From: Halochromatium roseum
GTDB lineage: Bacteria; Pseudomonadota; Gammaproteobacteria; Chromatiales; Chromatiaceae
Length of the DNA: 64,000 nt
Reading direction: 5' to 3'
Assembly: GCF_016653315.1 (NCBI RefSeq)
Contig: NZ_NHSH01000072.1
Location: forward strand, 1-64,000
Positions 1 through 26,767 of this stretch are shown here, in pieces. The notes beneath the pieces were generated by a model, which saw only the letters and a program-made list of their open reading frames with translations, searched no databases and was not told the DNA's origin. The position numbers and the translations under genes were made by a program. Position 1 is the stretch's first letter. The number at the start of each line of letters is the position of its first letter.

Positions 1-145
1 GCGCCGCCCACTTCGTTCCACCGTAACCAACAATTTCTGACAACAGACCCGCAACCCAGCGGCGGTGCTTCTCGTTGAGTTGATCAAAAACCGCCTTGAC
101 GTGCTCTTCTACCGCCTCCGGAATCACAACTTCAACCGCTGCCAT
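1..145 (-). CDS. Transposase, ISAzo13-like, N-terminal part only
   Basis: Only the first 48 codons are inside the window; the gene runs off the left edge. The start is ATG at 145. The visible protein contains LNEKHRRWVAG and then GYGG, which resembles the N-terminal LNEK(Q/T)RR...G(Y/H)GG signature of ISAzo13-family transposases. This is a family resemblance from memory, not a search. The IS end should lie a short way to the right of 145, but I could not identify a terminal inverted repeat because the other end is outside the window. Confidence 0.55.
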   Translation of the reverse strand, partial: MAAVEVVIPEAVEEHVKAVFDQLNEKHRRWVAGLLSEIVGYGGTKWAA

Positions 146-399
146 CTGCTTTCACCCTCGACCCTAACACCACTATAGGCAAGCATACCGACTACAATGA
201 AATCGGGAAACAGTTGATGGACACTTCCTAACCAGCGGGGGCCTGCGCTTCAAGGTCCGTATAGAAGCCGGCCCAGAGCACTGAGACAGCGACGAGTGGT
301 TCGCTCCAACACGCGCGTTGAGCCTGGCGAGCGCCGCTCGCAAGCGGACTAAGGATGCTTGCACGCAGGCGCGGTGAGACAAGCCCGTGGAACCCGGTA
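146..399. other. Non-coding gap between IS fragment and dnaC-like gene
   Basis: No credible gene. An open frame on the minus strand here gives an arginine/serine-rich translation with no recognisable domain. The right end of the IS element probably falls in this stretch. Confidence 0.4.
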
Positions 400-1095
400 T
401 CAAACGCTCTTCAGCACCGTCGAGCCCGATGAGCGGGGTCGTTGCCGATAACTCTCCCAGGCTAAGGCGATCAGCACCGAACCGCCTTCGCAGAGGCGAT
501 CCATGAGTCGCTCGCCAAGGTAGTCGGTGAGCTCATCGCGACTCAGGTTGCTGACCAGCACGGTCGGGCGCAGGTCGCTGTAGCGGGCATCAAGCACATC
601 GAACAGCATCGCCCGGCGTTTGTCAGCGTTGCCGATCGCCATGCCGACCTCATCCATGACCAGCAGATCGACGCGCGTGAGCTGAGCGATGGCCTCGCGC
701 TCGCTGTAGGCGGCATCGGACGCAAAGCTCGCCCGCATCATCCGCAAGGCCTCCGACATCGAGAGCAACAAGACACTGCGACCGGCGGTCAGCACCTCAG
801 CAACGATCGCACAGGCGAGATGGGTCTTGCCGGTACCGGGGGTGCCGACAAGCACCAGACTGTCACCTTGTTGCGAATGCTGCACATGGTCGGCATAGGC
901 CCGACAGAGCCCAAGCACCCGTCGTTGCTCTGCGGTGGTCACCTGATAGTTGGCAAAGGTCTTGTCGCGATAGCGTGCCGGAATCCCGCTGCGCCCGAGC
1001 AGGCGTTCGGAGGCGCGCTGCTGTGCGGCGCGTCGTTCGGCGAGAATCCGCCGCACCTCCTCGCGACCTGGGGCACCCAGTTCCTCAAGCGACAT
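400..1095 (-). CDS. DnaC/IstB-like helicase-loader ATPase
   Basis: AAA+ ATPase of the DnaC type, which loads a replicative helicase on DNA at an element's origin. Counting from the upstream ATG at 1179, Walker A GTPGTGKT is at residues 112-119, Walker B LLVMDEVG near 172-179, and a sensor-1 region LVSNLSRDEL near 208. The ATG at 1095 (protein starting MSLEELGAPG) is preferred because it overlaps the upstream gene by only 11 bases; the ATG at 1179 would overlap it by 95. The C-terminal ERLMDRL...W.SYR is typical of phage DnaC proteins. It is the last gene of a leftward operon with the DnaT-like gene, so a primosome role is likely. Confidence 0.85.
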   Translation of the reverse strand: MSLEELGAPGREEVRRILAERRAAQQRASERLLGRSGIPARYRDKTFANYQVTTAEQRRVLGLCRAYADHVQHSQQGDSLVLVGTPGTGKTHLACAIVAEVLTAGRSVLLLSMSEALRMMRASFASDAAYSEREAIAQLTRVDLLVMDEVGMAIGNADKRRAMLFDVLDARYSDLRPTVLVSNLSRDELTDYLGERLMDRLCEGGSVLIALAWESYRQRPRSSGSTVLKSV

Positions 1096-2002
1096 CACCG
1101 GCGCGCAGCCAGTCGATTTGATCGAGCGGAGTTGTTCCCGCAGCGTAGTCTTTATCGGCCAGTCGCTGACGTGTTTCATGGGTCGACCCCTTGGTCATGC
1201 GCGACTGCAGCAGCTGCAGTCGATTGATGAAGGTGGCATCCCAGCTCTTGCGTGATTCGCCGCAGTCGCGCCAATAGATGATGAATTCATCGATCTGCGC
1301 CTGCACCCAGTCGCGAGTGAGACCGCGCTTGTGCGCCCAGGCATAGACCGACTCACTCGGTTTCCAAGTGGGTGGGATCGGCGCGCTGCGGGCGCGTTGT
1401 TGGTGCGTTGGGGATGCTGGGGGGTCTACAGGGCTCGGTGCCGGTGAAGGCGGTGAGGACGTGACGGGGGCCGGCGCTAGGGCGGCTGGAGGACGCGTCG
1501 CAGCAGCGCTTCCGTCTTGCCGAACCAAGGTCAAATGCTGAGCTTTGCTGGGACTGGTTGCGCTTGGCGCTGGTGTCCGCTTGTGCTCGGCAGGAGGTGG
1601 CGGAGATTGGCGCGCGCTGTCCTTGGGTGCTGGTTCGTCCGCATGGGAAACCTGAGGTGGGCGCGGGAGTGGATCAGCCTCGACAGCAGCCTCAATGGGC
1701 ACCCGGTCATCGGTTGTTGGCACATCTAACGCCGAACACAGCAGCCGGTACCGGGTCGGATACCCGCGGCCGTGGCGTTCTCGCTGCAGGTAACGCCCGT
1801 CCAACCCGGATAGGGCTTTGGTCAGACCGCGCGGCGTCACGGCAGCCAGGGTAGCCAGCTCATGCACCGAGCACTGGCAAGGATGACCGCGATGGAGCTG
1901 CTCGCAGAGGGCCAGCAGCACCAACCGCTGCGACGGCGTGATGCCTGGACACTGCCAGGCCCAGGCGCGCACCGCGTCAATGGGAAGCGGCGTGGTCATC
2001 AC
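1085..2002 (-). CDS. Winged-helix replication protein with DnaT-like C-terminus
   Basis: The first ~70 residues look like a helix-turn-helix/winged-helix of phage replication initiators (GITPSQRLVLLALCEQ, then VHELATLAAVTPRGLTKAL). A long proline/alanine-rich linker follows (about residues 95-205). The C-terminal ~70 residues (WKPSESVYAWAHKRGL...EFIIYWRDCGESRKSWDATF) match the DnaT-type ssDNA-binding domain that pairs with DnaC. The stop overlaps the dnaC-like start and the 5' end overlaps the XRE gene, so the three are probably co-translated. Exact initiator versus adaptor role cannot be told from sequence. Confidence 0.75.
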   Translation of the reverse strand: MMTTPLPIDAVRAWAWQCPGITPSQRLVLLALCEQLHRGHPCQCSVHELATLAAVTPRGLTKALSGLDGRYLQRERHGRGYPTRYRLLCSALDVPTTDDRVPIEAAVEADPLPRPPQVSHADEPAPKDSARQSPPPPAEHKRTPAPSATSPSKAQHLTLVRQDGSAAATRPPAALAPAPVTSSPPSPAPSPVDPPASPTHQQRARSAPIPPTWKPSESVYAWAHKRGLTRDWVQAQIDEFIIYWRDCGESRKSWDATFINRLQLLQSRMTKGSTHETRQRLADKDYAAGTTPLDQIDWLRAGDVA

Positions 2003-2204
2003 GGCGCGGGCTCAGCAGGTCGATCACCTCGACATCCAAGGCCTTGGCAATCTGGGTCAGGCTGTTGAGGGTGGGATTCTCGACCCGGTTCTCCAGACGC
2101 GAAATCCAGCCCTGCGTGACCTTGGCTCGCTGGGCCAATGTGGTTTGGGAATAGCCGAGCTGTTGGCGGCGTTGGCGAATCGTCATTCCGACTGAGCTGC
2201 GCAT
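1977..2204 (-). CDS. Small XRE-family (Cro-like) regulator
   Basis: A 75-residue protein that is almost entirely one XRE helix-turn-helix: RQQLGYSQTTLAQRAKVTQGWISRLENRVENPTLNSLTQIAKAL. It heads the leftward replication operon of element 1 and overlaps the next gene by 26 bases. It probably regulates its own promoter; a 13-bp palindrome (GCCGATTTTCGGC, 2324-2336) lies upstream. A start seven codons downstream (ATG at 2186) is also possible. Confidence 0.8.
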   Translation of the reverse strand: MRSSVGMTIRQRRQQLGYSQTTLAQRAKVTQGWISRLENRVENPTLNSLTQIAKALDVEVIDLLSPRRDDHAASH

Positions 2205-2620
2205 CGAGAACCTCGCAAGCGAACCATCACCAGCGCGGGGGCCTGCTCGATCGACGTCGGCTCAAGCGCGCTGCCAGAGGGATAGGCTAGGCAAAGGGCG
2301 AGGCCGACGCAGTGGGTTTAGATGCCGATTTTCGGCGTGAATTCAGGTTGACAAGACGCTAGAGAGGCGGAAACGGTTGCTGGCACAGCATGCCGGTTTC
2401 ACGCTGCGATCTGTCCACTCGCATGGCGTCGTTGTGGTGGATTTCGGGACGGCTGTAGGAAGCGGCTGTGGTGAGAGGCGAGACCGAGCGCCATGCACGC
2501 GCAGGGGCGCACCGCCGTGCTGTCACTCACTGCTGACAGATCGCTGTCGCCGTCCTGGTCACCGACGAGGGGCGTTCGCGGTGGACGGCCGCCCCTAAGG
2601 CGCGCCATCCCCGCCGAGGA
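2205..2620. other. Intergenic region with one palindrome
   Basis: Both strands have short open frames here, but none shows a domain or ribosome binding site and I reject them. The perfect palindrome GCCGATTTTCGGC at 2324-2336 lies about 120 bp upstream of the small XRE gene and is an operator candidate. Nothing else is visible. Confidence 0.4.
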
Positions 2621-3067
2621 CTAACGCCTCATCTCGAACGCGAACATAAACGTGGTCGCTGCCGCCAGGAAGAGCGAAAAGAAACCCACAGCGTCGAACC
2701 AATGGTGTTGAAGATCGGGCAAGAATCGGGCGATGTACAACGGTAGGATGGCGAGCACCCAAAAGAAGACGCTGCTAATGAGCAGCTTCAGATTTGGCCT
2801 GTCCGTCGGCATTTCGCGGGTCATTGGAGGTTCTGATCGCGACATCACGTAAGCATGGTGCGCCTTGTCGGGATCGACCGGCCCCTGGCCGAACATCGTG
2901 TCGCCGACATGGAAGACGAATCCGCCGTTCTCAGCTCTCTGCAGCGGTGGATACTCGTTGTGCACGGATGCGGTCTCTGGGCTCGCCTGATCCGGATCAA
3001 CAGCCGGTTTGATCTGGTCGGCGAAGCCCCGGATGGCGTCACGAATCTCCTCTTGGCGGGTACTCAT
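2621..3067 (-). CDS. Small protein with two C-terminal membrane segments
   Basis: 148 residues from ATG at 3067 (MSTRQEEIRDAIRG). The first ~90 residues are soluble and acidic. Two hydrophobic segments follow near the C-terminus (LLISSVFFWVLAILPLYIA and FDAVGFFSLFLAAATTFMFAF). I do not recognise the family. It sits leftward next to the repressor gene, where temperate elements often keep exclusion or immunity genes, so a membrane exclusion role is possible but only inferred from position. The longer open frame up to 3349 is rejected because its N-terminal extension is arginine-rich and unstructured. Confidence 0.55.
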   Translation of the reverse strand: MSTRQEEIRDAIRGFADQIKPAVDPDQASPETASVHNEYPPLQRAENGGFVFHVGDTMFGQGPVDPDKAHHAYVMSRSEPPMTREMPTDRPNLKLLISSVFFWVLAILPLYIARFLPDLQHHWFDAVGFFSLFLAAATTFMFAFEMRR

Positions 3068-3285
3068 GGCCTCGGTCCTCAGGTCGATGGGGATCAATGT
3101 AAGACGCACACCGATCGGCTCCCATGGCACCGATCCGGAGACCACGCGCTGCGAAAGGATACCCGACCGCTTCCGATCTGCGAAGCCAGCGGGACTCGTC
3201 GACACCTCAGTAGAACGGAGACGCTGTTTGCGATACGTGCGCTCCGAAGGCTGACGGCGAGGAGAGCGTGTGTCCTCAGCCCACC

Positions 3286-3753
3286 TCAACGGCTCGCGAG
3301 TCGCACCAAGCGGAGCATCGGCTTCTCCGAGATGGACTCGCCATTGCACGCCATCTCGTAGAGCAGCCCGATCAGTTCGGCTTTCTTCTCCGGCGCCATG
3401 CTGCCGCCGATCTCCTCGAGGCCCGCTTCGACGCCGGCGATCACCGAGCCCAGCATCGCCAAATCAAGCCTGTCCTCAACCCCGTCAGGGCGTCCTTCCC
3501 CAGTGGCCAGCCAGCGCAGCGAGACCTGGGTCGTTTGGGCGATTTCCACCAGTTTATCGGCACCAGGCACGCTGGTTCCCGCGAGATACTTGCGGAAGAT
3601 ACTTTCCGAGATTCCACACTTTCGCGCGAAACCCAGGGTGCTCATGCCGCCCTTGATCTCGGCCAGTCGTTGCGGGAAACCGGCGCCATCCCAACCGGGA
3701 TAGCGGGCTGTATCGATGTTTGATGGGGTCTTTGAGGTCTCAACGGCGGACAT
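3286..3753 (-). CDS. XRE-family repressor facing the flhDC-like operon
   Basis: 155 residues from ATG at 3753, preceded by a good ribosome binding site (AAGGA on the minus strand). The N-terminal half holds an XRE helix-turn-helix (FPQRLAEIKGGMSTLGFARKC, GISESIFRKYLAGTSVPGADKLVEIAQ) followed by the common VSLRWLATGEG. The C-terminal part (EKKAELIGLLYEM) is a short helical tail found in similar phage repressors. There is no S24/LexA-type self-cleaving peptidase domain, so SOS induction by cleavage, as for SetR or CI, is not expected directly. It is divergent from the FlhD-like gene with two copies of a 12-bp repeat between them, which suggests it represses that operon. Confidence 0.8.
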   Translation of the reverse strand: MSAVETSKTPSNIDTARYPGWDGAGFPQRLAEIKGGMSTLGFARKCGISESIFRKYLAGTSVPGADKLVEIAQTTQVSLRWLATGEGRPDGVEDRLDLAMLGSVIAGVEAGLEEIGGSMAPEKKAELIGLLYEMACNGESISEKPMLRLVRLASR

Positions 3754-3876
3754 GATCAGCGTCCTTTCCAGGTCAGAATGAACAAAGTGTAACGCTTTAT
3801 CGCGAGTCATTGTTGTGTTTTTCGCGCTGTAGTGCATATCATAGCGCGAACTAAGCTCGATATAACGCTTTATCTG
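3754..3876. promoter_or_regulatory. Divergent repressor/flhDC-like control region
   Basis: TAACGCTTTATC occurs twice in direct orientation, at 3790-3801 and 3863-3874, 73 bp apart, one near each gene start. Between them TTCGCGCT (3821-3828) and AGCGCGAA (3843-3850) form a perfect 8-bp inverted repeat with a 14-bp spacer. A possible rightward promoter is TTGTGT (3813-3818) with TATCAT (3837-3842), whose -10 falls inside the inverted repeat. This layout suits a repressor controlling both directions. Which protein binds which repeat is not shown by sequence. Confidence 0.55.
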
Positions 3877-4197
3877 ATGCCCACAAAGACGGAGGCTGAT
3901 CTGGACCGAGCGGTGGTGACCTTGAATCTGCACTGGCTCCTGAGCGCGCAGGCGCTGGCGCGCTCAGATGTGGAGAAGGCGAGGCTGGTCTACGGTCTTG
4001 ATCTGGAGTTGATCGGCGTGCTGCGCCAGGCCTCGTTCTTGGTGCTGTGCGCCTTGGCGGAGTCGGGGGTGTTGCTGTTTCGACCGCGCTTTCCATCGCG
4101 CTTACTGCATGAGCGCTTGAGCGTTCCCTCGTCGTCGATGGTCGCTTCTGAACTGCAGACGCTGTTGCTGGCTGCCGAGGAGGCGGAGCGCTCATGA
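3877..4197 (+). CDS. FlhD-like transcription activator subunit (SetD/AcaD type)
   Basis: About 106 residues from ATG at 3877. The core LNLHWLLSAQALARSDVEKA, followed by YGLDLELIGVLRQASF and LVLCALAESGVLLFRPRF, aligns by eye with E. coli FlhD (INLSYLLLAQRL...RLGI...LPQMVKLAETNQLVCHFRF). FlhD-type proteins form a hetero-hexamer with FlhC and activate class II promoters. Homologues SetD and AcaD on mobile elements activate conjugation genes. The gene overlaps the FlhC-like gene by ATGA. The upstream GTG at 3832 would place the control repeats inside the coding region, so I prefer 3877, though no strong ribosome site precedes either. Since no flagellar genes are nearby and it sits in a mobile element, a role in element gene activation is inferred. 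Confidence 0.8.
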   Translation: MPTKTEADLDRAVVTLNLHWLLSAQALARSDVEKARLVYGLDLELIGVLRQASFLVLCALAESGVLLFRPRFPSRLLHERLSVPSSSMVASELQTLLLAAEEAERS

Positions 4198-4769
4198 GAC
4201 TGCAGCAATTGGCCCGCACACAGCAGGCCGTCGCGCTGCTCCGATGCGGGATGCGCACGACCTTGGTCCAGCGGATCACGGGTTTGCGGGCTGCGTTGGT
4301 GCGCGAGCTGCACCGGGAGATCCATGCGGACAAGCCCAAGTCTGGACAGCTGCCGAGTACGCACGCGGTGCTGGACTCGGTACTCAGTCAGGCCAGCGCA
4401 TCGCTGTTCATTGCGCTGTATCGGGCGCTCGGTGGTGCCGAGACGGAGCGGCAGATCCAGCTTGAGGCGTTGCTGCAGGCCCATCGGTTGTACCTGGAGC
4501 AGCAGGAGCGCGTCGCGGCTGGTGGCCGGCTGGGACCAGCCATCGATATCAATGCGGCTTGGGTACTGGCCCGGGATCTGACCACCGGGTTGGCGTTGCG
4601 GCGCTTTTGTCGGCAGTGCCGCATCCATTACCTCGCTGCGGACTTTTCGCGCACCGCGTTGCAGTGTCCGATCTGCAGACTCAAGCAACGGGGTGGTTGG
4701 CGAGGACGGGGTGGCGTGCGGCCGGCGAAGGATGATGAGGCCGTTGATGCGCAGCCCCCGGCTCACTGA
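4194..4769 (+). CDS. FlhC-like transcription activator subunit (SetC/AcaC type)
   Basis: 191 residues. The middle contains AHRLYLEQ and INAAWVLARDLTTGLALRRF, closely matching FlhC (AYRLYLEQ...LTRAWTLVRFVESGLLQL). Four cysteines in two CxxC pairs (FCRQC at ~150 and CPIC ~16 residues later) match the zinc site of FlhC. The C-terminal ~30 residues are basic and Gly/Arg-rich, unlike E. coli FlhC. Translationally coupled to the FlhD-like gene. Together they should form a DNA-binding activator complex. The target promoters are unknown; the GTTACCCC repeats at 5423-5449 and 18447-18473 are one candidate class of site. Confidence 0.85.
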   Translation: MRLQQLARTQQAVALLRCGMRTTLVQRITGLRAALVRELHREIHADKPKSGQLPSTHAVLDSVLSQASASLFIALYRALGGAETERQIQLEALLQAHRLYLEQQERVAAGGRLGPAIDINAAWVLARDLTTGLALRRFCRQCRIHYLAADFSRTALQCPICRLKQRGGWRGRGGVRPAKDDEAVDAQPPAH

Positions 4770-5008
4770 CGCCGCTGAGGAGCGCTGTCAAAGAGGCCCC
4801 ACCAGATGAACCCGCCGGCCATGGCTGTGTTCGGCTAGGGATCGCCAAGAAACCGCCCTTCACTCGGTCAACGCTGATCGGCTGCCATCGGCTTGGAACA
4901 CCCTGAATGAGTGAGCGCCGTCTCAAGACCAGAAGGGCCACACCTTTTTCCAGCGAACGGGCGCGAGTCCAGGATCGCGTTTTCCTCCACGACCCAAGCA
5001 GGACGACC

Positions 5009-5260
5009 ATGCAGACACAAACGCAGTGCACCGACAGTACCCCGACTCCCAACGAGCCCCAGGTCGACAACGACCGCTTGATCACTGCCGATGAGGTTCG
5101 GCGTCTGGCTGGCGGCATCAGCGACATGACGTTGTGGCGCTGGATCAAGCTGGGGATCACCCCGGCACCCTTGGTGATCGAGCGTCGCCGTTACTGGTGG
5201 CGATCGGCGGTCGTCGCCTCGCTGACGCACGCAGGACGGGCTAACGCCGAGCAGCTGTGA
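5009..5260 (+). CDS. AlpA-like / excisionase-type DNA-binding protein
   Basis: 83 residues from ATG at 5009, with AGGA five bases upstream. The winged-helix core DRLITADEVRRLAGGISDMTLWRWI...GITPAPLVIERRRYWWRSAVVA is typical of AlpA/MerR-like excisionases that bend att-site DNA or activate integrase genes. It lies about 245 bp from the tRNA-Lys attachment fragment, the usual place for a recombination directionality factor. The open frame extends 34 codons further upstream, but that part has no ribosome site and is unstructured. Confidence 0.75.
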   Translation: MQTQTQCTDSTPTPNEPQVDNDRLITADEVRRLAGGISDMTLWRWIKLGITPAPLVIERRRYWWRSAVVASLTHAGRANAEQL

Positions 5261-5422
5261 GATTGATTAAAGGAGGGGCGGCTGGGAAGTGCTGCGATGG
5301 GAGCCGCTGACAATGACGATCGCCGACCGCCTCCAGTGGTCATCACAACGCGAAGTAGACGGCCAAGCATCCCGACCCAGTGAAGCACCTCGGTCCTGTG
5401 TCAGTGCCTTTCAAACGTCTGC

Positions 5423-5449
5423 AAAATGTTACCCCCAGCGTTACCCCAG
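5423..5449. repeat. 27-bp repeat with two GTTACCCC motifs, copy 1
   Basis: This 27-bp sequence is identical to 18447-18473 inside element 2. It holds two GTTACCCC motifs 12 bp apart (5428-5435 and 5440-5447). It lies between the AlpA-like gene and the tRNA fragment. A shared protein-binding site (replication, recombination or activator) is inferred. Confidence 0.75.
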
Positions 5450-5465
5450 AGGCCTAAAATGAAAA

Positions 5466-5479
5466 ACGGGCTAGCCCGT
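5466..5479 (-). terminator. Terminator downstream of displaced tRNA-Lys end
   Basis: Perfect palindrome ACGGGCTAGCCCGT followed on the minus strand by a T-run (TTTTTC). It lies 25 bp beyond the 3' end of the tRNA-Lys fragment, so it was probably the tRNA terminator before element 2 integrated. Confidence 0.6.
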
Positions 5480-5504
5480 AAAGTAGCTAACCCATTGTTT
5501 TATA

Positions 5505-5549
5505 TGGTGCGCCCTGCAGGGTTCGAACCTGCGACCACCTGATTAAAAG
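5505..5549 (-). pseudogene. tRNA-Lys 3' fragment; left attachment site of element 2
   Basis: Minus-strand reading gives the anticodon-loop end, variable loop, T-arm and CCA end of a tRNA-Lys. 5532-5549 (CGACCACCTGATTAAAAG) is identical to 26719-26736 in the intact tRNA. The T-arm here (GCAGG stem around TTCGAAC) resembles canonical bacterial tRNA-Lys more than the intact copy does. This is what is expected if the element brought its own 3' half and pushed the old one to its far end. Confidence 0.85.
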
Positions 5550-5670
5550 ACCGACTCTCCCGGTTTCGCAAGTCGCTGTCTCGTCTCGCTTTTTCTTCCG
5601 GGTCAACGGCTTACAGTGCCATGCAATTGTTGCGCCTTGTGGCCGTTTGTTGCCGTTTCTGAGCCTCAAC

Positions 5671-10626: not shown

Positions 10627-12009
10627 TCACGCCACATCGATCCCACGTTGACGCTCGACCCAATATGCACCCTGCACGTTCTTGCGCCGAACCCACTGAT
10701 CCGACCGGATGTAATGCAGCGTGCAGAGGAAGCGGTTGAACGGCTGGAAGTCATGCACGACTTGCGTGACATAGGCAGACCACCACAACGACTCGCTCTT
10801 TGCGCTGCGCTTGAGTCTGAAGTAGTCGCCGACGCGATAGGACGCATAGCCTTTGACAGTCAATGACCCTCGCTCGAAATTGTGGGTCTGCTCGCCCGCT
10901 TGGATCAGCCACTTCTGCCGTTCCTCGGCCCAGCCTTTGACGCCTTCCTGAGCCTCGTTCTGCTCGGCTTCCCGGTTGTTCATCACCGACAACTGACTCG
11001 GCAGCAGGTGCGTTTCCTCGATCTGAATCCGATCGCCGTATTTCGCGCGCGTCTCCGCGTTGACGACGCCCATACCGTTGGCGACCGACGACGCATAACC
11101 GATGGCCGCGCCCTGTGGTGGCACTACCCAGACATGGTTGACCATCTCCGCGTCGTCCCGGTGGGCATTGAGCGCGACGACATTTGACATCGGGATCTCG
11201 AAAAACCGCAGATCGGCATTCACATCGTCGTCAAAGTCCGGCAGCGGGTTGCCGTCCATGTCAAACCACGGTGCTGGCCTGAACACCAGTTCCGGGTTGT
11301 CTTCGCCTTCGCGGACGAAGAACTCGTTCCAGGGTCTGTCGGCGTAGCGGTCCAGCAGCGACCAGACCGGCCCCTCCTGGCTGAGCGCGGTCGCGGGGAT
11401 GATGGTGCCTCGCTTGACGAAGAATTTCTTTTGGAACTCGTAGCCGGCCGCCGTCATCATCGAATCGGTGGTGATCGTCGCCACTTCCCACAGGAAATCC
11501 CCTGCAGGATGGGCCTTACTGACAAGCTCGGTCCCGACCAAATACTCGTTGAGGAACGTGCTGGCGCCGTCCTTGGTTGGTATGCCCCGGTTTTGAAACG
11601 TGATCCAGGGGTGCAAACGCTCGACAAGGAACAAGCACCCCGCATCATGCGCGACGACCGTCACGAAACGCTGCGGCTTGCCTTGGCCGTCGATGGACTC
11701 GTTACGCCCGACCGAGCGCAGGAAGCCCCGGAACACGACATAGAAGTCTTCCAGGCTCGCGCTCCCTTCGCGCCAGCGTCGCATCGATATCGTGATGGGC
11801 TGAAACGGCTCCCATTGACCATAAGCTGAGTCGCCGTCCAGTGGCATATCGGGAAAGATCAGCTGCGCCTCGCCGGTGGGTGCATAGAGGTTCTTGCTGA
11901 TACGCACCGAACCGCGGTCACCGAGCAAGTGGGTTACGTCGCCGCCGTCGATCTCGACCTTGATCTCGGGTCGGTAGCTGTGGCGCGTTGCGATATTAGA
12001 CTGTGACAT
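10627..12009 (-). CDS. Phage tail hub / baseplate protein
   Basis: 460 residues from ATG at 12009 (MSQSNIATRHSYRPEIKVEI). The N-terminal pattern VEIDGGDVTHLLGDRGSVRISKNLYAP, then ...AQLIFPD..., is typical of tail hub proteins of the gpD/gp27 class that cap the tail tube and connect to the spike. It directly follows the tape-measure gene, with a 14-bp overlap, the standard order in tail operons. The open frame extends to 12387, but that region is out of register coding for the tape measure. No baseplate wedge or fibre gene follows. Confidence 0.65.
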   Translation of the reverse strand: MSQSNIATRHSYRPEIKVEIDGGDVTHLLGDRGSVRISKNLYAPTGEAQLIFPDMPLDGDSAYGQWEPFQPITISMRRWREGSASLEDFYVVFRGFLRSVGRNESIDGQGKPQRFVTVVAHDAGCLFLVERLHPWITFQNRGIPTKDGASTFLNEYLVGTELVSKAHPAGDFLWEVATITTDSMMTAAGYEFQKKFFVKRGTIIPATALSQEGPVWSLLDRYADRPWNEFFVREGEDNPELVFRPAPWFDMDGNPLPDFDDDVNADLRFFEIPMSNVVALNAHRDDAEMVNHVWVVPPQGAAIGYASSVANGMGVVNAETRAKYGDRIQIEETHLLPSQLSVMNNREAEQNEAQEGVKGWAEERQKWLIQAGEQTHNFERGSLTVKGYASYRVGDYFRLKRSAKSESLWWSAYVTQVVHDFQPFNRFLCTLHYIRSDQWVRRKNVQGAYWVERQRGIDVA

Positions 12010-19139: not shown

Positions 19140-19474
19140 GCGGCTTCCCTCCTTCCCTCGGTCGCTCGATCTAGGTAATACGTCAGTGCGGCCGGGTCGA
19201 CTGCGCACATCTGCATCACCTCGCCGATGATCTGCTTGTCGTGCTCGCCGATGGACGCGAGCCAGGCGCGGATGGTTGCCTCGTCGCCAGCGTCGATGCT
19301 TGACTCGTTGGCGGCGGTCAACAGCGCTAACAGCTCCGCCTTGTGGGCTCGCAACTCTGGCGTGAGCGATGCAATCGCCTCGGGAGGTCCATACAGGTCA
19401 AGCGTCCCCGCTGCGGTGGCGGTGATGGTCACGTCCGCAGCTTTGGCGCGGTCGAGTAAGGTGGCTGCACTCAT
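19136..19474 (-). CDS. TubC-docking-domain-like small protein
   Basis: 112 residues. MSAATLLDRAKAADVTITAT...GTLDLYGPPEAIASLTPELRAHKAELLALL matches the short helical domain annotated as TubC N-terminal docking domain, common next to plasmid and phage primase genes. It overlaps both neighbours by four bases, so it is coupled to the primase-helicase and may bind it. Confidence 0.65.
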   Translation of the reverse strand: MSAATLLDRAKAADVTITATAAGTLDLYGPPEAIASLTPELRAHKAELLALLTAANESSIDAGDEATIRAWLASIGEHDKQIIGEVMQMCAVDPAALTYYLDRATEGRREAA

Positions 19475-22245
19475 AGCGATGCCCTCACTTTCTCGGCTGC
19501 TTGCGGCTTGACCGACTCATCGGCATCTCGCACCAGCGCCCATTGCTGGCGCCCTCGGGAGACCGTTCCTCGGATGATCCGTCGTCCGTCGTGGCGGCGG
19601 TCAACGTGGCGCTCGATCCAGCGACCAAGGATTCGGGGGTTGATGACACCGCGCTGGTCGGCGATCTCACGAACAGCATCATCAAGTGCGGGCCGCGCAT
19701 CGTCCTCGGGTGCGAACTCGCTGTGCTCGGTGGCAGTGATCAGTGCAGCGGTGGTGGTGGGCTTGGTGCCGATCACGGCATCCCATGCCGACAACAGGGC
19801 GCTGAGCTTCGCTGTTTCAGGGTCGAGCGCAAAGGCGCGCTCGGTGGCGGTCAGCGGGTCTGCAAACCGCTTGTCCCATGTCCCGACCCAGCAGACCGTC
19901 TGCCGCACAAGGTCATCCCAAACCTCAAAGGAGGCCGTTCTGCCGGCGCCATGTCTGACGCGGCCGGTGGTGATCCATGCACGCATGATGGTCAGCGCTG
20001 CCGACACAAGTTCCATGCGGCGAGAAAGCACCTGCTCCAATGGGCAGAAATCGAACTCGCGGGCATAGGGTTTCTCGATCCGGGCGTCCAGTCGGGCCGG
20101 GAAGATGCGCCGACAGGTATCGCCGATCAGCCGCAGATTGTTACCTGTAGTTAGGAACAGGCATCGGTTCGGAAGGGTTGCGGTCTGCGAACTGCCAAGG
20201 ATGCGGTCAGAATAGGTCGCGCTCGTCAGGAAGGCGTCTAAGGCCGCATTGCCAAGACCGTCTCTCACGTTGTCCCACAAGATCACGCGATGACCGTCGC
20301 GTAGTGCTGCAAACAGGCGCTTGCGGGCCTCGTCGTCTTGGCTGCCTGCGGGCGGGAGAACCGGAGGCGTATACCCCAGCGATAACGCGGCGATGGCTTG
20401 AGCAAGCAAGGTCTTGCCGGTGCCTGCGCTCGGCGCATCCAGTGCGATACCGGGCGCTGTCGGCAGGCTGGCGCGGACCACTGCGGTCAGCAGCATCGAC
20501 AGCACGACGCCAGCATCCACCTCGTCCACCAGCGGGAACAGCCGGAACGGATGCCATAACGCATCCAGGGCCGTGCGTGCCTGCTCCATCGTCGGCGCAA
20601 CCGGGACCGCCGGGAGGTCTGGCGTATCACTCATCAGCAGCAGTTTTGAGGCAGCGTCATAACCCGGCTCCGCAAGGATGCTGCCATCGGCGCGCAAGGT
20701 CGGCGCGGTTATCACCGCATCCAGTTGAGGCAAACCGCGCTCGCCGTCTTTGGCGACAATCCGCATGGCGGCCCATGCTGGCGCGTCCTGCGGTTCTTCA
20801 TCAGGCGGCGCGTCCGGCTCTGGACCGGCAACCAGGACATAGAACTCGGCGATGCGGTCGAAGTGGTCCACCAGCCAATCACGGTTGACCGGTAGGGTCC
20901 GGGCGTCCTCGGTGACGCGCGCGAGGGATGCACCGTCGCCGTGGTCGTACAGATCGCCTCGGGCGCGCAACAGGTCGAGTACCTGATCCACCACACGCGC
21001 GCGATCACCACGTTTCAGCTCAATCCTGGCGCTCGGGCGCAGCAGCGGGAAGCGTCGTCCGCCGTGGGCATGGCTGTAGATGTACGGGCGTCCACCACTG
21101 CGGAGATTGGCCCAGGCGATGCGTCGATCACTGCCATAGTCAGGTTCCAGCGGATCGCCAAAGCGCTTGCCGTGCCACTTCTGCGGGTTGTCGAGCAGTT
21201 GGCCGACCGTGGGCGTACTGCCATCATCGCAGTGCAAGACGAAATCGCCGGTTAGCTCGCGTTTCTCGCTGGCGCGGGTCAACGCGGCGCGGATCGCTTC
21301 GACGGCGATGCCGTGCTTCTCGGCAATCTTGGGCGCTTCGGTCTCGACCCATTCCTCGCGGGCCGATTTGAGTTGCGGCTTGATGGCCTCGCGGGCGGAT
21401 CGGCGTGCGTTGGTGGCTTGGGTCTTGATCGTGCCATCGGCAGCGGCGATTAGGTCGCGGAGGTCGAGCATGCCCTTTGTATCGCCGTCGATGAACCATC
21501 TTGGCGCTTTGCGCTCGACGCCTTCACCGAGAATCGGCGGCGCTGCGAAATCTAGGCGCTCGGGCTGCCAGACTGAGGCATCTACAAGGCCGCGCTCTAG
21601 CGCTTGCCCCGCCCTGCCGATCTCGATGCGGCCATGTCCAGATGACCACAGCAGCGCCATCAACGCCTTTCCTGCCTCGGGAATCAGCGCGGCATCACGA
21701 ACCGGGATGTAGATGCGCTGCCCGGTGATGCCTGCTTTGCTATCGTCGGTAGTGCACTGGATGCCGCTCGACGCGGACGGGCGCCAAAGCATCGGCGCCG
21801 ACGCGAGGCAGGGAGCAAGACCACGCAAGACCTCGATCAGTGCTTCAGGTTCAAGCGCATGATCCGCGTCGCTGTCGTGGTCCAGCATGAAGATGCCGGG
21901 AGCGCGACGGAACCCAAAGAACTTGCGGGTTCGGGATATTGCTCCGGGCGCCGACTCAAGACGCTTCTCGGAAACAAGGCGCGCTGTCGCTTCAGGCGTT
22001 ACACCAAAGGCCAGCGCTTGACTGACCTTCAGTCCGTCGAGCAGGTCAGCAAATTCACGCAACGACGGAACAGTAACCAGTTCGGCTGTGCCCTCGGTGA
22101 GTTGCGCGCTGGAGGTCTTAACCAGTTTGCCGTTGGTGCCGACCTTGAATTGCTTGGTCAGGATTCGCGGGTTGGTTGCCGTGATCCGGGTCAGCGCGAT
22201 ACCGCGATTCGGCACCGCATGCAGGTTTGAATTGCTGTTGCTCAT
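19471..22245 (-). CDS. Large primase-helicase-like replication protein
   Basis: 924 residues from ATG at 22245. The N-terminal half has GIFMLDHDSDADHALEPEAL and GRIEIGRAGQALERGLVDAS, consistent with the archaeo-eukaryotic-type primase or VirE-like region of element replication proteins. The C-terminal half is an ATPase: Walker A APSAGTGKT (about 604-612), Walker B VILWDNV (~654), followed by LFLTTGNNLRLIGDTCRRIF and an arginine-rich region. A single protein that primes and unwinds would let the element replicate independently, as P4 alpha does. Overlaps the helicase stop by ATGA. The extra 40 codons upstream are rejected. Confidence 0.75.
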   Translation of the reverse strand: MSNSNSNLHAVPNRGIALTRITATNPRILTKQFKVGTNGKLVKTSSAQLTEGTAELVTVPSLREFADLLDGLKVSQALAFGVTPEATARLVSEKRLESAPGAISRTRKFFGFRRAPGIFMLDHDSDADHALEPEALIEVLRGLAPCLASAPMLWRPSASSGIQCTTDDSKAGITGQRIYIPVRDAALIPEAGKALMALLWSSGHGRIEIGRAGQALERGLVDASVWQPERLDFAAPPILGEGVERKAPRWFIDGDTKGMLDLRDLIAAADGTIKTQATNARRSAREAIKPQLKSAREEWVETEAPKIAEKHGIAVEAIRAALTRASEKRELTGDFVLHCDDGSTPTVGQLLDNPQKWHGKRFGDPLEPDYGSDRRIAWANLRSGGRPYIYSHAHGGRRFPLLRPSARIELKRGDRARVVDQVLDLLRARGDLYDHGDGASLARVTEDARTLPVNRDWLVDHFDRIAEFYVLVAGPEPDAPPDEEPQDAPAWAAMRIVAKDGERGLPQLDAVITAPTLRADGSILAEPGYDAASKLLLMSDTPDLPAVPVAPTMEQARTALDALWHPFRLFPLVDEVDAGVVLSMLLTAVVRASLPTAPGIALDAPSAGTGKTLLAQAIAALSLGYTPPVLPPAGSQDDEARKRLFAALRDGHRVILWDNVRDGLGNAALDAFLTSATYSDRILGSSQTATLPNRCLFLTTGNNLRLIGDTCRRIFPARLDARIEKPYAREFDFCPLEQVLSRRMELVSAALTIMRAWITTGRVRHGAGRTASFEVWDDLVRQTVCWVGTWDKRFADPLTATERAFALDPETAKLSALLSAWDAVIGTKPTTTAALITATEHSEFAPEDDARPALDDAVREIADQRGVINPRILGRWIERHVDRRHDGRRIIRGTVSRGRQQWALVRDADESVKPQAAEKVRASL

Positions 22246-23579
22246 GCGGCGACCCTCTGATCCGGATAGCAGCGGGGCGGTAGTTCGCCCGTCAGCAGGG
22301 CGGATAGCGCGGGTCTGGTCAATGCCACATAGGTAAGACGAGCGATGATGTCGGATCGGGTGCATTGACCGATGTCGCCAATGTCGATAAACGCATGTTG
22401 GAAGGTCGATCCTTGGCTCTTGTGAACCGTGCAGGCGTGTGGTGGGCGTAGATCGCTCATCCGCTCCTTAGCGCTGAAAAAATCTTTCCAGGCTTCACGG
22501 CGAGCCTTATCCAGCTCATCAGTTGGGTTGCGGTGGGCCTTGCAGGCTCGCTGCAGCGCGTTCGCCTTGCTGGCATAGTGCGATAACAGCGCCTTTGCGG
22601 CATCTCTGTCGGTTGGGCAAAAAAGGTTGGCAGTCCCTTTTTCGTGCTCCACCTCGACCGAGACCCCACGAACCTCGAAACCTGAGTCGTGGATTGTGCC
22701 CTCGGCGGCATCAAGCACGGTGACGGTCGCCTCGGTCGGCAGGATCACCTTGCCGTACTGCTTGACGGCCTCGTTGACGATGAATTGCTCGCCTTCGGTA
22801 AAAGGGTAGCGGTCAGCGGCAGGACCGACCAAGCGGCGACGGATCACCCGATTGAGTTCAACCACTCTCCGATTGGTCCATGCGATTGCACGGCAGAAAT
22901 CCGAATCGGCGCGGTAGTCGTCGGTGGCAAATGCGTTCAGCATTGCGCTCTCAAACTTGCCGGCTGAGGCGCAGTAGACACCTGGGGCGCGCGGTGTGAT
23001 GACCGGAAATGGGGCGCCGTCGAGCACCTTGCGGAATCCGGTCGCGGTGGCAATCAAGGGATTGTCGAGCGCCTGCCTGTGAATCGTCGTCAGATGCGAC
23101 GTTGGCACCTTGTCGAACGCGGGCGATACAGACTCGAAAATGGGCGGCAATTGATGATTATCGCCGACGTAAAGCACGCGGAAACCGATCTCAGAGGCGT
23201 ACTGGTCAACAACGGCCAGCAGGTCCGAGTCCACCATGCTCGCTTCATCTACGATCACCAGGTCGCCACGCTTGGCCTTTGGGCGGCGCTTGCGCTCGAG
23301 CACCATCCTTCCGCGCTTGTGGTCAGCTTCGGGCTGCAGACCCAGAAGGCTGTGCACGGTCGATGCTTCGCCGTCTGGGCTCATCCTTGCGGCGACCTTG
23401 GCGGCCTTGTGCGTTGTTGCGGAAAGCCGGATCGGCAGCTTGGTCTGGCTGAGGAACTGCCCGACAAGATAGGTTTTGCCGGAACCCGCGGGTCCGCTCA
23501 GGGCGTGCCTGGTGCGATGAGATGCCGTGAAGGCGTGAAGCTCGCGCAGTGCTTGAGCTTGGTCAGGGGATAGAATCAT
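22242..23579 (-). CDS. Dda/RecD-like superfamily 1 helicase
   Basis: 445 residues from ATG at 23579 with GGAGA upstream. Walker A GPAGSGKT (residues 29-36), motif Ia RLSATTHKAAKVA, Walker B VIVDEASMVDSD (108-119), motif III YVGDNHQLPP, and a C-terminal HKSQGSTFQHAFIDIGD...YVALTRP. This is the full motif set of Dda/RecD2 5'-3' helicases, which help start phage replication. First gene of the replication operon. Its ribosome binding site lies inside a perfect palindrome (23587-23605). Confidence 0.85.
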   Translation of the reverse strand: MILSPDQAQALRELHAFTASHRTRHALSGPAGSGKTYLVGQFLSQTKLPIRLSATTHKAAKVAARMSPDGEASTVHSLLGLQPEADHKRGRMVLERKRRPKAKRGDLVIVDEASMVDSDLLAVVDQYASEIGFRVLYVGDNHQLPPIFESVSPAFDKVPTSHLTTIHRQALDNPLIATATGFRKVLDGAPFPVITPRAPGVYCASAGKFESAMLNAFATDDYRADSDFCRAIAWTNRRVVELNRVIRRRLVGPAADRYPFTEGEQFIVNEAVKQYGKVILPTEATVTVLDAAEGTIHDSGFEVRGVSVEVEHEKGTANLFCPTDRDAAKALLSHYASKANALQRACKAHRNPTDELDKARREAWKDFFSAKERMSDLRPPHACTVHKSQGSTFQHAFIDIGDIGQCTRSDIIARLTYVALTRPALSALLTGELPPRCYPDQRVAA

Positions 23580-24816: not shown

Positions 24817-25962
24817 TCAACCCTCCTTGAAGATGCGTGCGTTCATGCGCTCGACCACGCCGGCGGTATGCGCTTCAGAAAGATGGCTGTAGCGCTTCAC
24901 CATTGCCAAGGTCTTGTGACCCAACACCTCGGCGATCTCGGCGAGGCTTGCGCCGTTCATCGCCAGGTAGGACGCTGCCGAGTGCCTGAGATCATGCCAA
25001 TGGAAATCGGTGATCGCGGCTCGCTTCAGCGCGGTCTCGAACGGAGTGCGTAGATCAACCGGCTTGATGCTGCCGTCGTCTTGCTTCTTGCGAGCAGGGA
25101 ATAGGAGGTCGGTATCCAGGCGGCGGACCTTGGCGCGCTCGCGCACCAGCTCCAGGGCGTGACCGGCCAGCGGGAGAACGCGAACCTCGCCGTTCTTGGT
25201 GTCGCTCAAGGTCGCCACGCGCCGGTTGAGGTCGATCTGCGGCCAGCGTAGCGACATGATTTCATCGAGTCTTGCGCCTGTACTGAGCGCCAACACGACA
25301 CAGGTGTAGAGGTCCGGGCTGGTGCTGGCGCGGCAGGCGTTGAGGAATCGGGTCCGCTCGCCGGGTATGACGGTCCCGTTCGGTAGGGTCTCGTCGTCGC
25401 TGAGGAAGCGCACCCGCCCGCGCGGCTCCTTGAGCTTCGTCACCTTCCTTAGCGGGTTGTCCTCGCACCAGCCGTATTCTTTCACGGCAGCCGTGAACAC
25501 ATGGCTTAGAACGGCCAGGTAGCGATTCACGCTCGCCGGACTCCGCGCCTTACCCTCGCCGCGCTTCTTCGGGTCTGTTGCCGCGCTCGGGATCGGCTCA
25601 TCACGCAGCTTGTCGCGGTACTCGCCGATCAGCGCTGGTGTTACGTCCGCAAGCAAGGTGTTGCCGATCTGTTTTTTCCACCACGCGAGCTGTCCCGCTT
25701 GAGTGGCTTGCGTCTTGCCTTTCTTGCTTGGCAGCACATCACGGCTGTAGCGGTCGATCAGGTCGGCGAGGCTATGCCGCTTGGCCTCGGCGGTCTTGAA
25801 GTGCCGTCCTTCACGAATCGCGGCCTCGGTCTGCGCGGCCCATGCCTTTGCGTCTGTCTTGCGCTCAAAGGTGGCGGTCTGCGCCGGGTAGCCTTTGAGG
25901 CGAATCATCACGCGATAGGTGGTCTTGCCGTCGGCGCTCTTGCGGTCTTGGATGGTTGCCAT
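24817..25962 (-). CDS. Tyrosine-recombinase integrase (phage/island type)
   Basis: 381 residues. N-terminal arm-binding region (residues ~1-55; YRVMIRLKGYPAQTATFERK), core-binding SAM-like domain (~65-165) and catalytic domain. Catalytic set: Arg231 (LSTGARLDEI), His323-x-x-Arg326 (HWHDLRHSAASYLAMNG), His349 (VLGHK) and Tyr358 (KRYSHL). It should recombine the tRNA-Lys core at 26719-26736 with its partner. It is 0.73 kb from the tRNA, pointing away from it. The gap in between holds repeat clusters suited to arm binding. Confidence 0.9.
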   Translation of the reverse strand: MATIQDRKSADGKTTYRVMIRLKGYPAQTATFERKTDAKAWAAQTEAAIREGRHFKTAEAKRHSLADLIDRYSRDVLPSKKGKTQATQAGQLAWWKKQIGNTLLADVTPALIGEYRDKLRDEPIPSAATDPKKRGEGKARSPASVNRYLAVLSHVFTAAVKEYGWCEDNPLRKVTKLKEPRGRVRFLSDDETLPNGTVIPGERTRFLNACRASTSPDLYTCVVLALSTGARLDEIMSLRWPQIDLNRRVATLSDTKNGEVRVLPLAGHALELVRERAKVRRLDTDLLFPARKKQDDGSIKPVDLRTPFETALKRAAITDFHWHDLRHSAASYLAMNGASLAEIAEVLGHKTLAMVKRYSHLSEAHTAGVVERMNARIFKEG

Positions 25963-26691: not shown

Positions 26692-26767
26692 TGGTGCGCC
26701 CTGTGCGACTCGAACGCACGACCACCTGATTAAAAGTCAGATGCTCTACCAACTGAGCTAAGGGCGC
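26692..26767 (-). tRNA. tRNA-Lys (anticodon UUU)
   Basis: 76 nt, CCA encoded. Acceptor stem GCGCCCT pairs with AGGGCGC. D-loop AGCTCAGTTGGTAGAGC; anticodon loop CTTTTAA gives UUU; T-loop region GTTCGAGTC. Integration site of element 2: the 3' half is element-derived, so the T-arm (TGCG) differs from the displaced original at 5505-5531 (GCAGG), while the acceptor end is identical. Confidence 0.97.

Follow-up and report, generated by a model that had tools for sequence, protein, structure and literature searches.

A module of flhDC and a divergent putative repressor at the start of the contig

The stretch of DNA analysed here, i.e. positions 1-64000 of contig C72 (hereafter the window, 64 kb in full length), comes from a genome of 5.17 Mb in 88 contigs (G000) of what is apparently a purple sulfur bacterium. 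Its start is the start of the contig, and the nearest named contigs are those of Halochromatium salexigens DSM 4395 and Lamprobacter modestohalophilus DSM 25653. Close to this start lie two genes overlapping by 4 nt, which encode FlhD- and FlhC-like proteins and are divergent from a gene for a CI-type helix-turn-helix (HTH) protein, our repressor candidate (Table 1); we refer to these three genes and the gap between them as the module. An earlier note on this DNA, made from the sequence alone, had proposed that the overlapping pair is homologous to FlhD and FlhC, and the Pfam scores of both proteins, each above the cut-off, bear this out. Both genes were also recovered independently by a whole-genome search. 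The mechanically called open reading frame (ORF) of flhD begins at a GTG at 3832; its orthologues start at the ATG at 3877.

Profiles built from six relatives matched the solved structures of FlhC (2avu, 1.4e-14; 8j56, 5.5e-13) and of FlhD (8j56, Table 1), and the four cysteines of FlhC to which the earlier note had drawn attention, i.e. C139, C142, C158 and C161, are invariant in all 12 aligned members. Among the three nearest species, the ratio of non-synonymous to synonymous substitution rates (dN/dS) is 0.17-0.23 for FlhC and 0.12-0.35 for FlhD, pointing to purifying selection. The window's FlhC matches the FlhC domain only, with no match to DUF2857, and its partner is a true FlhD. In agreement with the proposed mobile-element setting without flagellar genes, no flagellar family other than FlhD and FlhC was found among the eight ORFs scanned at positions 400-5260.

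The repressor candidate, too, is as had been described, i.e. an HTH protein without a peptidase domain: the Pfam scan reported HTH families only and no match to Peptidase_S24. Its orthologues were aligned, with a dN/dS of 0.29-0.65 among the same three species. The gap between its gene and flhD contains two copies of a putative operator, the octamer CGCTTTAT, which is found in this gap in seven of 12 loci, with 12 copies; in shuffled sequences it reached a mean of 0.16 loci and a maximum of two, and the best octamer of any kind reached four. The entire window holds three copies; outside the gap, the octamer was found a single time in the 7-7.5 kb around it in 15 loci. In four Thiocapsa-type loci (G136b, G142, G135b and G029y), one copy lies, as judged by eye, between TTGACA and a TATAAC/TATAGC-like hexamer; a repressor bound at CGCTTTAT between such promoter hexamers would block transcription.

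A separate FlhC clade in purple sulfur bacteria

For the search of relatives, an FlhC profile was built from six members of the window's clade, and at most the best 15 candidates per genome were scored in the first pass. Among 210 genomes of the family, 22 full loci scored 189-348 bits and one fragment 143 bits, scores which favour the window's clade because the profile was built from six of its members. The 22 loci derive from 17 genomes, so that some loci counted below share one genome. Lower scores were obtained by a range including the type A pairs (94-133 bits), by flagellar genes (55-59 bits) and by the rest, some of them FlhC2 (38-64 bits). Here, type A denotes the flhC genes and flhDC pairs of transfer regions together with SetC and AcaC, and FlhC2 a further FlhC group; the assignment to these groups, by score and context, preceded the tree.

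Of 369 genomes sampled from the class, none but the window's own exceeded 113 bits, and a pattern scan of one genome per species over 84,980 species returned 12 loci, all from purple sulfur bacteria or gammaproteobacterial metagenome-assembled genomes (MAGs). Plasmids gave matches in 1,248 records, all below 60 % identity and, in the best 40 listed, at 31-38 %. One FlhC-like gene on an Azospirillum plasmid (L163:5962-6537) has Tad/type II secretion-type pilus genes as neighbours, and no conjugation genes are among those listed for the stretch. A temperate phage lysogeny module, or a phage origin, was ruled out on the lack of FlhC relatives in phage records or viral contigs: tblastn with FlhC gave no match in 50,697 phage records, and none was confirmed in viral contigs. 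One PHROG of unknown function matches FlhC (9.5e-14).

The 69-row FlhC tree places the 22 loci together (100/97), apart from nine flagellar rows that include the host's own (100/99) and from eight FlhC2 rows (100/99); eight rows stayed ungrouped. The type A rows are scattered: SetC and AcaC belong to an 11-row group beside the window's clade, and the pairs of Chromatiaceae transfer regions, including the host's gene on contig C39, fall elsewhere. Because the join of the 11-row group with the window's clade has 85/82, a distant common origin of the two may be envisaged.

The whole-genome search found three FlhC-type genes in the host, i.e. one of flagellar type on contig C54 (263 bits), that of the window (64 bits) and the one on C39 (57 bits). 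The host thus does have another FlhC outside the window's clade, called flagellar on score and tree only, since a MotA fragment sought in the 3.5 kb around it gave no match. The gene on C39 (L036) is part of a further FlhDC pair accompanied by MobH, TraD-type and ParM-type genes, and contig C30 (L145) carries TraG_N with TraF/H-type genes.

Architecture of the module across loci

Genes of the relatives were called with a home-made caller. FlhD precedes FlhC in all 22 loci, and in 21 of them a repressor of the same kind faces flhD. The clade divides into the window's subclade (15 loci) and a sister subclade (seven loci). In the former, DnaC, DnaT, a small XRE protein, a membrane protein and the repressor are as a rule encoded on one strand, and FlhD and FlhC, followed by AlpA/Xis and/or an integrase, on the other; in several loci the gene after flhC encodes AlpA or an integrase, and in G177 and G060 no DnaT was found next to the module.

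In the sister subclade, a longer repressor (225 aa where fully called) faces FlhD-FlhC, and a second FlhC-type gene follows downstream in all seven loci. This FlhC2 gene, as a rule with an FlhD-like partner, stands in line with the first pair (L041, L135, L138, L118, L071, L073 and L137). Between the pairs, six of the seven loci have a response regulator on the other strand; the one tested with a hidden Markov model (HMM) consists of a receiver and an HD_5 domain, and is presumably of the HD-GYP type. Five of the seven stretches also contain a DUF2857 gene together with a protein of 530-550 aa, alike in the five, and three of these have ParA as well. Two of the 530-550-aa proteins were scanned without a Pfam match; we assume that they are like BisD. 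In three sister loci, the two FlhC-type genes are followed by the ParA and DUF2857 genes, and the arrangement is possibly a three-tier cascade. In the window's subclade, a DUF2857 gene lies 4 kb from the module in G060, and a search of the window's genome for DUF2857 gave no match.

In 13 of the 22 loci, a tRNA gene with its 3' end towards the module is found 0.7-2.3 kb beyond the last flhC (Ser in five, Arg in four, Lys in three and Gly in one). The window adds a tRNA scar to these 13, and the other eight loci, some near contig ends, show none there.

The element ends at a tRNA-Lys scar

Two relatives, G002 and G003, are labelled with the same genus as the host. In G002, the counterpart of window 267-5549 runs directly into a tRNA-Lys gene, after which the chromosome continues as window 26692 onward; homology between the two therefore breaks at the scar (Table 1) and picks up at 26692. 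Identical throughout to the 3' end of the G002 tRNA-Lys, the scar shares 37 of 45 positions with the window's own tRNA-Lys. By both the scar and the homology breakpoints, the element ends at a tRNA 3' end, as expected of a tRNA-targeting integrative element.

Given the breakpoints in G002 and the complete scar match, tRNA-Lys was probably at one time the immediate neighbour of the flhDC element, and a second element would later have entered the same site. On this view, the flhDC element does not include the phage-like genes to the right; the pair sits at the end of a different element, the one that ends at the scar. The second integrative element occupies window 5550-26691, between the flhDC element and tRNA-Lys, and encodes, besides the proteins in Table 1, a protein of 928 aa without a family match. 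At the other end, window 1-266 has no counterpart in the compared stretches of G002 and G003. The remainder of the element was also sought in the host's own genome, where the 4.1 kb beside the G003 module matched only two short stretches of the window's dnaC.

Neighbouring genes

The replication gene dnaC (dN/dS 0.08-0.17 among the three nearest species) closes the repressor-side operon; in Thiocapsa-type loci, relatives of its product with 52-56 % identity are likewise encoded on the side of the repressor. The small XRE gene shows too few changes to judge, with a dN/dS of 1.7 and 2.7 where computable. The gene of the membrane protein adjoins that of the repressor in 13 of 13 loci tested, near-identical G002 and G137a being left out, and has a dN/dS of 0-0.30; its product is a candidate sensor or anti-repressor. 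All six compared genes, i.e. flhD, flhC, the HTH repressor gene, the membrane protein gene, the small XRE gene and dnaC, are open in three species; apart from the small XRE gene, their dN/dS values point to purifying selection. At the place of the excisionase/AlpA-like gene, the Thiocapsa locus L067 has a match to PF05930 AlpA (7.4e-9). The gap upstream of the small XRE gene (window 2205-2620) contains an aligned block common to Thiocapsa-type loci, possibly a promoter or origin element. In one related element (L042:14813-16488), an AbiEi/AbiEii pair adjoins the replication genes and is followed by an ORF of 2,664 aa.

Table 1. Genes and features of the flhDC element and of the second element in the window
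Feature	Position	Strand	Evidence or remark
DnaC-like helicase loader, last gene of the repressor-side operon	400..1179	-	phrog_50 9.6e-66; IstB/AAA
DnaT / phage O-like replication initiator	1085..2002	-	PF17948 DnaT 3.8e-14; phrog_391 5.7e-8
Small XRE/Cro-type DNA-binding protein	1977..2186	-	HTH_3 1.7e-12 on ORF 1977-2204; kept in relatives
Small membrane protein, 148 aa, C-terminal hydrophobic stretches	2621..3067	-	hydropathy of 4 members; no Pfam match
CI-type HTH repressor candidate, 155 aa	3286..3753 (orthologue starts)	-	Phage_CI_repr 1.6e-6 on ORF 3286-3933; HTH_3
Divergent control region, 123 bp	3754..3876	.	two copies of putative operator CGCTTTAT, 3793-3800 and 3866-3873
FlhD-like subunit	3877..4197	+	PF05247 32 bits, E 1.6e-7, cut-off 27; profile match to 8j56 6.5e-13
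FlhC-like subunit, four-cysteine site	4194..4769	+	PF05280 64.7 bits, E 1.1e-17, cut-off 27; tree
Excisionase/AlpA-like DNA-binding protein, downstream of flhC	4907..5260	+	phrog_66 excisionase and transcriptional regulator 8.9e-7; no Pfam match
tRNA-Lys 3' end, attachment scar and element end	5505..5549	-	45/45 identical to G002 tRNA-Lys 3' end
Tail-like protein of second element	10627-12009		weak
Primase/polymerase-like protein of second element	19471-22245		
Dda-like helicase of second element	22242-23579		
Integrase of second element, next to tRNA	24817-25962		
Intact tRNA-Lys, integration target	26692..26767	-	ARAGORN

Linkage to conjugation genes in relatives

Across the genomes of the relatives, MobH (PF07514), TraG_N (PF07916) and DUF2857 were the families tested by HMM; the names TraC, TraU, TraN, TraB, TraF, TraH and MobI are putative, in part borrowed from annotated neighbours. 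Transfer proteins were sought around the loci with a panel of eight proteins of Thiocapsa-type genomes (without TraD and MobH), reading the best match for each protein. They are present in eight of the 15 loci of the window's subclade (G142, G137b, G136b, G138, G135a, G135b, G060 and G029x), with the best matches all on the inner side at a distance of 6-137 kb. None was found on the shorter inner sides searched in G177 (18 kb), G137a (17 kb), G003 (8 kb), G002 (5 kb) and the window (4 kb), nor around the seven sister loci. MobH and TraG_N each occur in 14 of the 17 module-bearing genomes; neither was found in G003, G018 or G066.

In five of the eight loci with transfer proteins, the stretch that holds the module also holds a type A flhC, on the opposite strand and at a distance of 30-67 kb. 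In G136, the type A gene and the module lie 124 kb apart on one contig, the transfer region being inverted relative to G138; the transfer proteins lie 15-20 kb from the module, and an integrase-like gene, called from sequence alone, is situated between flhC and tRNA-Arg. Type A genes are present in nine of the 11 genomes with the window's subclade vs nine of 199 others (Fisher 1.3e-9, uncorrected for kinship), and in none of the six sister-subclade genomes. In the Thiocystis MAG G060, the module contains the only FlhC match at E <= 1e-8 and adjoins TraF/H/G-type genes; MobH is found near DnaC and a small XRE gene on another contig. G003 also holds a truncated flhC of the window's type (L143:1668-2030), beside a gene, presumably of heme-binding type, which is situated near TraG on C30 in the window's genome; this copy is perhaps the trace of a lost integrative and conjugative element (ICE).

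Comparison with known systems

FlhDC-like activators decide when the ICEs of the SXT/R391 family, IncC plasmids and SGI1 move. In excerpts of the respective papers, SetCD and AcaCD are described as class II activators acting on xis and tra promoters (PMC4344509, PMC4542580), and SgaCD reportedly induces SGI1 to excise and replicate (PMC8409611). According to excerpts of PMC4542580, the FlhCD-like activators of the Set, Aca, Sga, Aqa and Asa families all share one neighbourhood, with a lysozyme-like gene, Srp partition genes, MobI and TraG beside flhDC as the Set/Aca hallmark.

The module resembles SetCD/SetR of SXT/R391 in combining an FlhDC-like heteromeric activator near the attachment site with a CI-type HTH repressor, and the window's relatives share MobH/TraG-type transfer genes with these elements; AcaCD of IncC plasmids and SgaCD of SGI1 are likewise FlhDC-like activators of mobile elements. 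In contrast, the window's FlhC is 33.5 % identical to SetC of R997 and belongs to another clade, and AcaC also lies outside the window's clade, in a tree without SgaC. While excerpts of PMC4542580 give SetR an S24 peptidase domain, the window's repressor has no match to it. The setDC genes of R997 adjoin slt, eexS and traG, several genes from a LexA-like repressor, whereas the window's flhDC genes stand directly opposite the repressor and are oriented towards xis and the tRNA. A Set/Aca-type neighbourhood, i.e. lysozyme-like, partition, MobI or TraG genes, was not found among the eight scanned ORFs, the far side of the element being outside the contig.

The earlier view of the pair as a distant member of the SetCD/AcaCD logic can thus be kept in part. 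In its favour are the lineage outside the flagellar clade and the linkage to SXT-like conjugation genes in relatives, but SetC and AcaC fall outside the window's clade and the hallmark neighbourhood does not appear at 400-5260. The pair is not simply another SetCD/AcaCD, and five relatives carry both kinds of pair in one stretch. As a whole, the proposed logic is plausible.

In excerpts of PMC7423338, BisC of ICEclc carries DUF2857, and BisD a ParB domain and no FlhD domain. The module is similar to BisDC in the DUF2857 genes beside it, in the sister subclade and in G060, and differs in that the window's FlhC matches FlhC rather than DUF2857 and its FlhD is a true FlhD. With flagellar FlhDC it shares the domains, the four cysteines of FlhC and the adjacent gene pair, but its FlhC forms a separate clade. 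In the titles and abstract openings of open-access literature on FlhDC and integrative elements, Chromatiaceae, Thiocapsa, BisDC and SgaCD, the arrangement was not found described.

A proposed excision switch of an SXT-like element

Several features can be read directly from the sequences, i.e. which genes are present and how they are arranged, the clade of its own that FlhC forms, the tRNA end and the conjugation linkage in relatives. From these, we consider it rather probable that the locus is the end at which a tRNA-targeting, SXT-like ICE of purple sulfur bacteria, or a transfer-less descendant of one, is integrated and regulated, with a repressor-flhDC-excision switch.

As to how such a switch would operate, we infer the repression of flhDC by the HTH protein, the targets of activation and the trigger as follows. 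The CI-type repressor, which has no self-cleaving domain, most likely occupies operators in the gap between its own gene and flhD and silences flhDC. Once it is lifted, FlhD and FlhC would assemble into an activator of the class II type and turn on the AlpA/Xis and integrase functions next to them, leading to excision; we propose this excision control because of the analogy with SetCD, AcaCD and SgaCD. Further targets of the activator may be the replication genes behind the repressor or the tra operons. Where a type A pair is present, the two pairs might divide the labour, the window-type pair controlling excision at the attachment end. As the repressor has no self-cleaving domain, the trigger would differ from self-cleavage of the SetR type; candidates are the membrane protein in the window's subclade and the response regulator in the sister subclade.

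A number of points weigh against such a switch in an SXT-like ICE. The contig ends 399 bp beyond dnaC, which is why transfer genes of the window's copy cannot be seen. An integrase was not found between xis and the scar, nor was a second attachment repeat when the tRNA 3' ends of 14 loci were compared with the fetched stretches, where nothing was conspicuous except the known scar of the window and a tRNA-Arg repeated in tandem in G136b, the other matches being of 11-15 bases. In G222, one of the 22 loci, no repressor was detected, and the 25-row FlhD tree leaves the whole group unresolved (57/22), with support for the window's subclade (eight rows, 99/98). The octamer lends weaker support than its numbers suggest because CGCTTTAT is absent from five of the 12 loci and six of the seven loci with it belong to one genus; despite this, the window's genus shares it. 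A consensus scan reported no sigma-70-like site in window 2000-5600, and no FlhDC target motif was found, Gibbs sampling of 22 and 17 upstream regions yielding GC-rich noise. Finally, the eight transfer proteins were not found in the 52 kb searched on the inner side of G136a or in the 30 kb of G029y, and the G003 genome has no match to MobH or TraG_N at all.

The findings in G136a and in G003, whose module is accompanied by an integrase and tRNA-Gly, would suit a different explanation, which we regard as unlikely but as the strongest rival: the window's copy is a smaller, mobilizable or satellite-like integrative element without transfer genes of its own. In the case of SGI1, SgaCD switches excision and replication, and a helper supplies conjugation; here, an element with MobH and TraG on C39/C30 would be the helper. 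The separate MobH and FlhDC pair on C39 and the TraG_N on C30 fit this explanation, as do the DnaT/DnaC-type replication genes usually found beside the module. The eight loci with module and transfer genes on one stretch, at different tRNA genes in Thiocapsa-type genomes, argue against it, however, and so does the G060 module next to TraF/H/G-type genes.

Still less probable, in our view, is a decaying remnant, broken at the contig start, buried behind the second element and no longer a switch. It would agree with the unshared positions 1-266, the missing integrase at this end, the separation of the locus from its tRNA by the second element and the truncated flhC in G003, but the six compared genes are open in three species and five of them have a dN/dS below 1. 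That the pair is a recent displaced copy of the host's flagellar regulator, for which the flagellar-type flhDC on C54 would be the source, deserves hardly any credence: the FlhC tree rejects it by keeping the window's clade apart from all nine flagellar rows, the host's own included, and no other flagellar family occurs among the eight ORFs.

Returning to the excision switch of an SXT-like ICE, it is tempting to go one step further, and we do so tentatively, at somewhat less than even confidence. One ICE may have two FlhDC-type master activators of different clades, i.e. one pair in the transfer region, in a SetCD/AcaCD-type neighbourhood, and the other, faced by a repressor, at the attachment end, where it would control excision and replication. 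In related bacteria, the same end switch would have been coupled to BisDC-type, ICEclc-like elements, which would make it a portable top-level switch bridging two superfamilies of ICEs. Its trigger would then be something other than self-cleavage of the SetR type or the known inputs of ICEclc.

The different architecture of this clade suggests a second way in which the FlhDC fold came to be recruited for the control of mobile elements. With two related activators seemingly coexisting in one element, these bacteria offer a natural system for target specificity and division of labour, and the module beside DUF2857 genes in relatives gives a handle on the relation of BisDC-type regulation to FlhDC.

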